Positions 45,102-48,493 of a DNA stretch of 49,940 bases are shown here, piece after piece. This stretch comes from Fragilaria crotonensis (lineage: Eukaryota; Bacillariophyta; Fragilariophyceae; Fragilariales; Fragilariaceae): assembly GCA_022925895.1 (NCBI GenBank), contig JAKSYS010000471.1, positions 1-49,940 of the forward strand, read 5' to 3'. The notes beneath the pieces were generated by a model, which saw only the letters and a program-made list of their open reading frames with translations, ran no database searches and had not been told where the DNA came from. A program made the position numbers and the translations under genes. Numbering within the stretch: position 1 is the first letter of the stretch; each line of letters begins with the position of its first letter.

Positions 45102-45773
45102 GACTGAAGGTATCTGTTAGTGGTGATGATGATGGTTGGTCCTGGATTGATCAATTTGGTGACAAACCACAAATAATGGTTTCGAAAGTATAAATGCTGC
45201 CAGTCTCACGAGAAAACTTGAGCGTATGGCGTGTAGAATTGGGAATTGTAGATGTCGATAATGGGAGGACCCCACATAAAAAAGTCTACAGTAACAGCTA
45301 CAGAAACACTGGAGTACTGTATGCATACGAAGCAGTAACAGGACATACGACACTCTACTTCTCGTAGTAGTAGGACTACTTCACTCTGAAATACCAGTAC
45401 AAGTACTGGAGTACCAGCTACTAATACCTGTTACTGTAGTACCGTCTTATCCGTGTACTCCACTGCTACGGTGGACAGTAGACAGTTCTTCGAGTACCCG
45501 GTACCGAGTACCTGGCACCTGGTACGTGCATGATACTTGTACTGGAGTATCACTACAAGAGTGTGAGCTGTGAGCATTGGAGAGAACAGAAACAACGCCA
45601 CGCAATTCACCTGTCGATCGAATATCTTCCAACAACTTCCCACTTCTGATGAAAGGACCCGCTCTTGAAGTTCAGCAATTATAAGCAACTGATTCAGTTC
45701 CATCGTAAATTTTATCCGAGCAGGTTTGTATCATGATTGGATGATTTAGCTATTGAGCATCAACATCGACGTC
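45102..45773. other. Divergent spacer between NAA30-like and channel genes
   Basis: It contains a GTAC tract (11 copies in 45312-45541). A minus-strand open frame from 45703 (MELNQLLIIAELQ...) might be a 5' exon, but no consistent splice into the NAA30 frame was found. No other gene is seen. Confidence 0.45.
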
Positions 45774-46982
45774 ATGGAGCCGTTTTTCGCATTTTTAAGG
45801 GACAAGAGTGAGGATCCGAAGGTAAAGGAGGATGATCCCGAACGAGCGGAGACTGTGCGCCTAATTCCAGAATCCCAATTGCCAGATGCGGATTCGAGCA
45901 CCAACTATGCATCGACTCAAGATCCTGCGATTCATAAGATTCGATTCCAAGTCGTAGTCTGGTACGTCGGTCCAGTCGATGTCGTCCTGGGAAAGGTAGA
46001 AATGAAGTTTCGAGTAACAATTTTCTGGAATACCCCCACCAACTTCTCTCGGAGCGACCCAGTTGGCTACGGCCTAGACAACCCATGGCATAAAAAGGTG
46101 TGGGCCATGCATGGACGACAGCGAGCCTTTGAACGAAACCTTTCACGCATCATGGATCAAGGTTCGCGCTTAGTCTACGTCCCTCCCGTGTCCATTCTCA
46201 ATGCTGTGGATTTAGAAACCGTTGGGGATGCGGAAGTTTGCTTGATCGATGAAAAGATCCAACTTATGAAGTGGACCTGTCTGTATAAGGCATCTCTCTT
46301 GCAAGACGACCTGCAAGTACCTAACTTTCCTCACGATGAACATGATTTGGTCATGCGATTCGGTATCTTGAAACATCGCCAGCCTAACAAACGCTGGGAT
46401 CGAAGGAAGTGGAAGCTCGCTCTAGCCACAGTCGAGGATACCCTGGATACCATTCACACGCCTCATGGGCTGATTGTTGATCATGTCAAGGTCCCGGGAT
46501 TCAGTTATACGGGTGGATTAAAGTTTGAATTCGTTCCCCTCCGTTATGGTATGCAGGGAAAGGATGCTGCCGAGGATCAGTGTCTTCAGGTTAAACTCCG
46601 CGTACATCGAGATTCCTCTTATTACAATTGTAATATCATCCCTCTTCTGGCTATGCTCAATGTTGTAGCCCTGTCGACGATGGCATTGGATGCCGAACAT
46701 TTTGGTTCGCGTGGTGAGATGATTCTTGCCACAAGTTTTGTGGAGATTGGCATTCGCATGACCGTTGATTCTCGATTACCATTGGTGGGGTATCAGATCA
46801 AAATCCAAGTCGTCCTCAACCATTTCTTTTATGGACTTGTCTTCTTGGGTCTCGAGAGCAGTTTGGTGTACGTGTTGCATGAAAAATACGGAGTCGATAC
46901 GTCATGGATCGACCGCGGCGCTGTGATGCTCGAGCTCCTTCACCTACTGATCGCTCTTGTCTACTACTATTGTTTCTTTTAG
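45774..46982 (+). CDS. Pentameric ligand-gated ion channel-like protein lacking the Cys loop
   Basis: The first ATG in frame gives 402 residues from a single exon. An acidic N-terminus of about 50 residues leads into a beta-rich extracellular-type domain (VVVWYVGPVDVVLGKVEMKF, YVPPVSILNAVDLE, NFPHDEHDLVMRFG). The last motif matches the FPxDxQ hairpin at the tip of pentameric channels, but both loop cysteines are absent, as in prokaryotic members. The channel part begins YYNCNIIPLLAMLNVVAL (M1), continues EMILATSFVEIGIRMTVDSR (M2) and QVVLNHFFYGLVFLGLESSL (M3), and ends GAVMLELLHLLIALVYYYCFF (M4). There is no obvious signal peptide. Ligand and ion are unknown. An anion or cation filter cannot be read safely from M2. 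Confidence 0.8.
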   Translation: MEPFFAFLRDKSEDPKVKEDDPERAETVRLIPESQLPDADSSTNYASTQDPAIHKIRFQVVVWYVGPVDVVLGKVEMKFRVTIFWNTPTNFSRSDPVGYGLDNPWHKKVWAMHGRQRAFERNLSRIMDQGSRLVYVPPVSILNAVDLETVGDAEVCLIDEKIQLMKWTCLYKASLLQDDLQVPNFPHDEHDLVMRFGILKHRQPNKRWDRRKWKLALATVEDTLDTIHTPHGLIVDHVKVPGFSYTGGLKFEFVPLRYGMQGKDAAEDQCLQVKLRVHRDSSYYNCNIIPLLAMLNVVALSTMALDAEHFGSRGEMILATSFVEIGIRMTVDSRLPLVGYQIKIQVVLNHFFYGLVFLGLESSLVYVLHEKYGVDTSWIDRGAVMLELLHLLIALVYYYCFF

Positions 46983-47052: not shown

Positions 47053-48493
47053 TCAATGAGACGGCGAGTTAGACAGAGTGTACTCGAATGTCCACACGTC
47101 AAGACCCAGGGAATCCTTCAGGCTCGAGAACTCCTTGTCGAGTTTTCGAATATGGTCCTTGTCCCATGTCATTGTGGTGGTGCATTCAGCGGTGATGACG
47201 AAGTCACGGCGACCATTATGTCTCATGACAACTTCAGTTGAGATATTCTCCACAGACATACCTTCTTCGGTAATTTTCGCAGCAATGGCAGCCAACATGC
47301 CGGGCCTGACAACGAGCACAAACAGAGTGAGCAAATTGGAAAAGAGAAACGAGAGGGAAATGAAACCACAACTCAGTCACGTACCTGTCTTCCCCGATAC
47401 AATGTATACGAAGACCATGCACCGCTTTGCTGTATTCCCCTGTGGCACGCCTCGTCAGACCGGTGCAACGAATGTTGAGAGGTTTCAAGTCCGGATTCTT
47501 CTGTAGCGACTTGATAAGGCTTTGGGTTTGTCCGGGCGGCGTTGCAACATGCATGAGAATGATAAATTCATTCCCCAATCGCACCATTTTGGAGTGTGTC
47601 ACGTTGCCATGTTCTTTCGCGACGCTTGCCGCCAACATGGCGACCCATCCCGGCTTGTCCGGTCCAGAGGCAGTCAGGACAAGATGATTCATATCCTTGT
47701 CCAAGTCCACAGACGTGTGAAAAAATCCCACAAATCCCTCTTGCATCATGGTCAGAGTCGCTCCCGTGACGGCACCTCCGGCCATTTCTTCTCCGTGGAC
47801 GACATCGCCACCACGCATGGAGGAGAGGATGCACGTCCATAGGAGGGATACGCCAGCGACAAATGGGATACGAGCGTACATGGGCATGAAGGAAAAGTTA
47901 ATAATCATGGCGGGGACCCAAATTTTCCAAAGTGCGATCAAGTCTTCTTTTAGGTTGGCGCGGCAATTGGAAAGGCTTTTGCCAATGTCGAAACTATCGG
48001 ACATGACGAGGTCTTTGGTAATGTAAAATGCTGGAAAGTACATGAGAGGGTGATGCACACATTGATCGAGGAAAACCTGAAAAATGTTGTGAGTGGATGC
48101 GATACATAGACACAAACGTAAAGTACCGGTACATACTTCAAGCTCAGCACTCGCCACTATCAGCATTGTCAAACTCACCTGTCCAGCGAGTTGCGCCATG
48201 CCCTTAAAGTCTCGGATCTTGGCCCGAAGCGGCTTGGCAGCGAATTTGGCAGCGTGCGGAAAGAGTCGAGTAAAGACAGGAACATAGAGAGTATACTGAA
48301 CACCACCCAAATAAAAGAACCCAAAGGCTGCAAAGGCAGCATTCCGCTTCCAATCGATTTCCTCACGTCGCTCGACAACCTTTTGCACCAACAAATCTGA
48401 AAATGAGGTCTTGACACAAGAGAGTCCCACGCCGAAAGCAAAGGGGTACTTTGCTGGGATTCGAGTCCATCCTGTACGGACGATGGAAGCCAT
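47053..48493 (-). CDS. Mpv17/PMP22-family membrane protein fused to two ACT domains
   Basis: Exons 48493-48179, 48076-47385 and 47305-47053 join cleanly to 419 residues. The introns are 102 and 79 nt, with donors GTGAGT and GTACGT. Residues 10-195 are Mpv17/PMP22-like with four predicted helices: YPFAFGVGLSCVKTSFSDLL, GGVQYTLYVPVF, DQCVHHPLMYFPAFY and the family signature LWKIWVPAMIINFSFMP / ARIPFVAGVSLLWTCILS. Two ACT domains follow: 235-300 (HLVLTASGPDKPGWVAMLAA) and 326-410 (LRIHCIGEDRPGMLAAIAAK). Each has the D-[KR]-P-G loop that binds small ligands, typically amino acids. The splice at 47385/47305 rebuilds the second ACT motif exactly, which supports the fusion. Mpv17 proteins form channels in mitochondrial, peroxisomal or plastid membranes. 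Ligand gating by the ACT pair is inference. Confidence 0.88.

Follow-up and report, generated by a model that had tools for sequence, protein, structure and literature searches.

Mutations in human MPV17, which with Sym1 and PXMP2 belongs to the Mpv17/PMP22 family, lead to mitochondrial DNA depletion syndrome, and passages of the same account call the role and cargo of the Mpv17 channel elusive and propose for Sym1 a pore of about 1.6 nm with an Nout/Cout topology (PMC6166979). Nucleotide precursors are suggested as Mpv17 cargo in parts of two sources (PMC6166979, PMC7050145). ACT proteins, for their part, are described in a passage of PMC4270767 as requiring the glycine of the first turn for ligand binding, and in the SerB2 protein of Mycobacterium tuberculosis changing either first-turn glycine abolishes serine binding and the accompanying change of oligomer (PMC4270767). 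This serine-driven oligomer change is, in the relevant section of another study, absent from two SerB2 orthologues (PMC10564941).

The window analyzed here, a 49,940-nucleotide stretch of DNA from the diatom Fragilaria crotonensis, carries both kinds of domain in one gene. Three minus-strand exons, the last running from 47305 onward, make up a single reading frame for an Mpv17/PMP22 domain followed by two ACT domains (Table 1). Spliced translation bore out the exons, phases, and splice sites, in agreement with the preliminary description, which had the exons joining without frame conflict and the last splice rebuilding an ACT motif; intron 2 indeed divides the Arg codon of GEDR/PGM. Above curated Pfam cut-offs, the spliced protein matches Mpv17_PMP22 (residues 137-190, E 2.5e-13), ACT_6 (236-299, E 1.1e-15), ACT_4 (327-361, E 7.8e-8), and ACT (333-373, E 2.9e-6). 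Weak matches to Fucose_iso_N1, ACT_AHAS_ss, ACT_7, and TTHA0829-like_ACT fell under the cut-offs and were set aside. The N-terminus is short, because only eight codons separate ATG 48493 from the in-frame stop upstream, and the near-identical relative P0001 starts at the same position. Retention of intron 1, which has a length divisible by three, would insert 34 residues into the Mpv17 domain. Elsewhere in the window, a 410-residue open frame on the plus strand (45750-46982) is convergent with the fusion gene; it has hydrophobic stretches near its end, as judged by eye, and no Pfam match at E values up to 1.

Table 1. Features of the Mpv17-ACT gene, in window coordinates
Feature	Position	Strand	Remarks
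Exon 1	48179..48493	-	Residues 1-105; a brief basic leader, then the first part of the Mpv17 domain; ATG 48493; from the spliced translation
Intron 1	48077..48178	-	102 nt, GT-AG, phase 0; without a stop codon if retained; missing from P0001
Exon 2	47385..48076	-	Residues 106-335 plus two bases; remaining Mpv17 domain, linker, ACT1, start of ACT2
Intron 2	47306..47384	-	79 nt, GT-AG, phase 2; within ACT2 motif GEDR/PG, Arg codon split
Exon 3	47069..47305	-	Remainder of ACT2, probably ending at the stop TAA 47071-47069; a base is lacking near 47096
Mpv17/PMP22 half	47807..48454	-	Residues about 14-195, interrupted by intron 1; modeled as long helices
ACT1	47456..47689	-	Residues 235-312, ACT_6 type; ligand-loop Asp245, Gly248
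ACT2	47069..47419	-	Residues 325-413, intron 2 inside; ligand-loop Asp335, Gly338
Off-frame tail WTFEYTLSNSPSH*	47053..47094	-	Frame of the earlier reading; unmatched by P0001 and by the alignment consensus at 407-413

We confirmed that the Mpv17 plus ACT-ACT fusion is genuinely encoded, in one spliced gene. A homologue search of 5.8 billion proteins gave 442 relatives, and all 120 of the best 120 carry both Mpv17 and ACT Pfam labels. P0001 (414 amino acids, from a 1372-nt contig) is 99% identical to the window protein: 400 of the first 406 residues match, six differ, and the match is uninterrupted at both junctions. Since 414 codons plus 181 nt of introns need more than 1400 nt, this contig must be intron-free. 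MMETSP, a transcriptome project, is among the sources of 13 of these best 120 homologues, twelve of which have transcript names. Both halves therefore sit on one piece of expressed sequence, which runs against the refuting outcome named beforehand, transcripts ending short of the ACT region or a separate one for each half, and upholds the earlier statement that the fusion is encoded rather than an artefact of neighbouring genes. Among the 38 retrieved proteins of 381 residues or fewer, 31 end or diverge directly past the GxDR motif of ACT2, at intron 2, as intron-blind gene calling would give if this intron is conserved.

One part of the earlier reading, its gene end at 47053, probably does not hold. 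The window frame agrees with P0001 at no position from residue 407 on and likewise leaves the consensus of a 121-row alignment there, while the expected ending, VDIRVHSV-TAA, lies one frame over at 47095-47069. We infer from this shift that the window lacks a single base somewhere between about 47097 and 47095, through an assembly error or in an allele. The stop at 47053 and the final 13 residues of the earlier reading, which are out of frame by both comparisons, are thus probably not real. A strict C-terminal motif pattern matched 60 of 197 full-length proteins; it was too narrow and was set aside as evidence.

The Mpv17 half resembles the described family in its PF04117 score (50.3 bits against a cut-off of 27; P0001, 50.2) and in its predicted layout, about 190 residues of helical domain whose first long helix follows a short leader. 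It differs in its C-terminal tandem ACT pair and in motifs of its own, such as DQCVHHPLMYFPAFY and WVP, at which the human and yeast Mpv17 forms differ. It is recognizable as an Mpv17 subfamily, with a mean identity of 64% over 89 relatives for residues 14-200. An AlphaFold2 model of the protein (mean pLDDT, 88.5) places helices at 17-40, 48-77, 96-130, 136-168, and 171-193, with mean hydropathies of 0.60-1.31, although the number of membrane spans they represent is unsure; there may be a fifth membrane helix. The linker to the ACT pair is predicted to be floppy, with a pLDDT below 50 at residues 197-208. Fold searches returned no Mpv17 structure, but their lists were filled by ACT matches and nothing follows from this. 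Mean loop charges are +2.4 for the N-terminus, +2.5 for 77-98, and −2.1 for 127-150, and they tentatively suggest an orientation, and hence a side of the membrane for the ACT pair, opposite to that proposed for Sym1.

The second half consists of two beta-alpha-beta-beta-alpha-beta units that match ACT profiles in Pfam, in the AlphaFold2 model, and in fold and profile searches. In sequence and predicted fold the pair resembles the putative GcvR 1u8s, and these matches support the GcvR-like pair of the original reading. It is not a GcvR orthologue: the GcvR equivalog NF008612 has a cut-off of 267 bits, against which P0001 scores 30.1, P0205 43.7, and P0214 42.0, with no NF008612 match listed for P0185. 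Unlike GcvR-type tandem ACT proteins, it is joined to a membrane domain. The ACT match to 2nyi from Galdieria sulphuraria, a 195-residue chain that lacks an Mpv17 part, is just as close. In the phosphoserine phosphatase SerB2 (3p96, 5jlp), the ACT pair sits at the N-terminus of a soluble phosphatase, which it regulates. The fold points to no particular ligand, since 2nyi was deposited as an unknown protein, and further down the fold and profile lists come aspartokinase, acetohydroxyacid synthase, homoserine dehydrogenase, NikR, and ribosomal S6.

In a 90-row count, in which P0001-P0122 form a diatom group of 36 rows and the other rows number 54, both ACT domains keep the glycine of the beta1-alpha1 turn (Gly248 in 85 rows, Gly338 in 86), and Asp335 is kept in 89. 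Few ACT positions are nearly invariant across these 90 sequences, and the Asp and Gly of the ligand loop belong to them. Such retention fits the binding of a small amino acid, although the glycines may instead be structural. The remainder of the pair diverges quickly, with mean identities to P0001 of 40% and 30% for the ACT halves against the higher value for the Mpv17 half; between P0001 and the Thecamonas protein, the values are 58% for the Mpv17 half and 28% and 16% for the ACT halves. Divergence this fast could arise without a shared ligand and counts against a sensing role.

The fusion is present in ochrophytes, a haptophyte, and an apusomonad. The preliminary description had proposed a protein search for Mpv17 plus ACT architectures, and ours found the fusion in diatoms, Parmales, a pelagophyte (Chrysophaeum), and beyond, the other named carriers being Kryptoperidinium, Emiliania huxleyi, and the apusomonad Thecamonas trahens. 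Kryptoperidinium is a dinoflagellate that hosts a diatom endosymbiont. A diatom-specific fusion was rejected on the carriers outside diatoms, which include E. huxleyi and Thecamonas. A second search with a shifted length band gave 91 relatives, 90 of them with an ACT label; the exception, P0186, has a scrambled tail. A further search contributed the best 120 of 165 matches. In all, 238 of 239 retrieved proteins carry both labels, a count that is silent on how often the subfamily occurs without ACT, as the queries were themselves fusions. P0187, a 481-residue metagenome protein in which the start of an FAD/NAD-binding oxidoreductase runs into the later portion of an Mpv17-ACT protein, is probably a chimeric gene call. 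The wider tree, built from 69 of 187 retrieved proteins, has several weak deep forks and places Thecamonas on a long branch.

Within the F. crotonensis genome, there are 19 Mpv17 matches, the fusion gene included, whereas a search with the ACT part finds nothing else at E values up to 1. A paralogue tree of 19 fusions and eight loci from this genome (P0186 and P0187 were excluded from the trees) puts the fused Mpv17 halves on one side of a weakly supported branch (66/89), found in 68% of 200 bootstrap trees. The nearest unfused paralogue, L012 (G000:C548:100992-101270), is 35.5% identical over 214 residues; its leader is long, basic, and rich in serine and alanine, with a mitochondrial look. 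Three further Mpv17-only copies, L001 (G000:C715), L015 (C55), and L008/L016 (C412), are near-identical, and by eye each has a hydrophobic leader with an AHSFSPA site, which looks like plastid targeting. The three copies on C715, C55, and C412 suggest a recent duplication or uncollapsed haplotypes.

The leader of the fusion itself, 16 residues long in P0001, shows no such plastid signal by pattern or by eye. Among 217 scorable leaders of fusions, 175 lack acidic residues and 187 have a net charge of at least +2; in internal control windows the shares are 21% and 20%. They look mitochondrial-like but not specifically so, and other routes are equally compatible with a basic leader. P0133 opens with a stretch resembling a signal peptide, and P0185 has a long hydrophobic start. 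Plastid targeting, judged by a signal peptide followed by an ASAFAP-like motif, was rejected, since a simple pattern found that motif in one of 234 leaders, that of P0006.

The reading we tentatively favor, at a likelihood just short of even, is that the protein is an Mpv17 pore in an organelle membrane, most likely mitochondrial, whose state is set by an amino acid at the ACT pair. The Mpv17 half would form or join a small-solute pore, an activity carried over by analogy from the reported behavior of Sym1, MPV17, and PXMP2. The ACT1-ACT2 interface would hold a small amino acid, with glycine or serine the likeliest, whose binding would alter the swapping or dimerizing of ACT pairs, and the pore would in turn be opened, closed, or assembled. 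Glycine and serine come first to mind since glycine, serine, and one-carbon metabolism is where the nearest named ACT relatives act. The nucleotide precursors suggested as Mpv17 cargo and the two SerB2 orthologues that show no oligomer change speak against this reading.

It is also conceivable, if rather unlikely, that the ACT pair is a constitutive oligomerization module whose domain-swapped contacts hold Mpv17 subunits together, with the ligand irrelevant. The lower conservation of the ACT halves would suit such a role, and the ACT pairs of SerB2 are described, in part of one study, as dimerizing through domain swapping (PMC10564941). Against it stand the near-invariant Asp and Gly of the ligand loop, a point tempered by the possible structural role of the glycine. 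About as unlikely, in our estimation, is that the Mpv17 half serves mainly as an anchor and that an amino-acid-sensing ACT pair brings a soluble enzyme or regulator to the surface of the organelle, in the manner of GcvR and GcvA. GcvR, the best-known relative, acts by a glycine-dependent protein contact, as Heil reportedly described in 2002, and the low-confidence linker also favors this reading, but conservation across lineages is highest in the Mpv17 half, which would be odd in a mere anchor.

The preliminary description had instead suggested an organellar pore gated by a metabolite such as glycine or serine, fitting photorespiratory traffic in an alga; in its fuller form this would be a pore of the peroxisome or plastid specific to algae. 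Algae do make up the majority of the named carriers, PXMP2 is peroxisomal, and one ochrophyte Mpv17, not known to be the fusion, appears in a portion of the work of Dorrell et al. among plastid candidates picked for experimental check (PMC5462543). Two things argue against this proposal: the presence of the fusion in Thecamonas, a non-photosynthetic phagotroph, and the near absence of the ASAFAP-like motif, set beside the leaders of the paralogues on C715, C55, and C412, which look plastid-like by eye. Carrier and leader together weaken the tie to algal photorespiration, and we consider the proposal improbable. Finally, that two adjacent genes were misread as one has virtually no chance of being right, as the near-identical contig is too short for introns, the transcriptome sources hold the fusion in one piece, nearly all retrieved proteins carry both labels, and nothing was found in its favor.

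A literature search, with subscription journals mostly outside it, returned no study joining Mpv17/PMP22 with an ACT domain, bar one plant-root paper that holds both terms once; looser searches, too, turned up nothing on the fusion among the papers listed. Source names for members cover one half at a time: ACT domain-containing protein, Mpv17 / PMP22 family, glycine cleavage system regulatory protein, and peroxisomal membrane family protein. The domains have been noticed, and their joint architecture appears to be unstudied.

That several distantly related groups of unicellular eukaryotes share the fusion suggests an organelle pore able to sense a metabolite. Somewhat doubtful, though worth stating, is the broader proposition that these proteins represent an old and widespread class of eukaryotic organelle pores in which a small amino acid, through a built-in GcvR-like sensor, directly controls gating. 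If true, a ligand-gated Mpv17 channel would tie the glycine, serine, and one-carbon state of the cell to solute flow across the mitochondrial membrane. An Mpv17 protein with an attached sensor would also offer a direct handle on the family, testable on purified protein, as the ligand of the ACT pair should indicate which metabolic pool is served by a pore of this kind.
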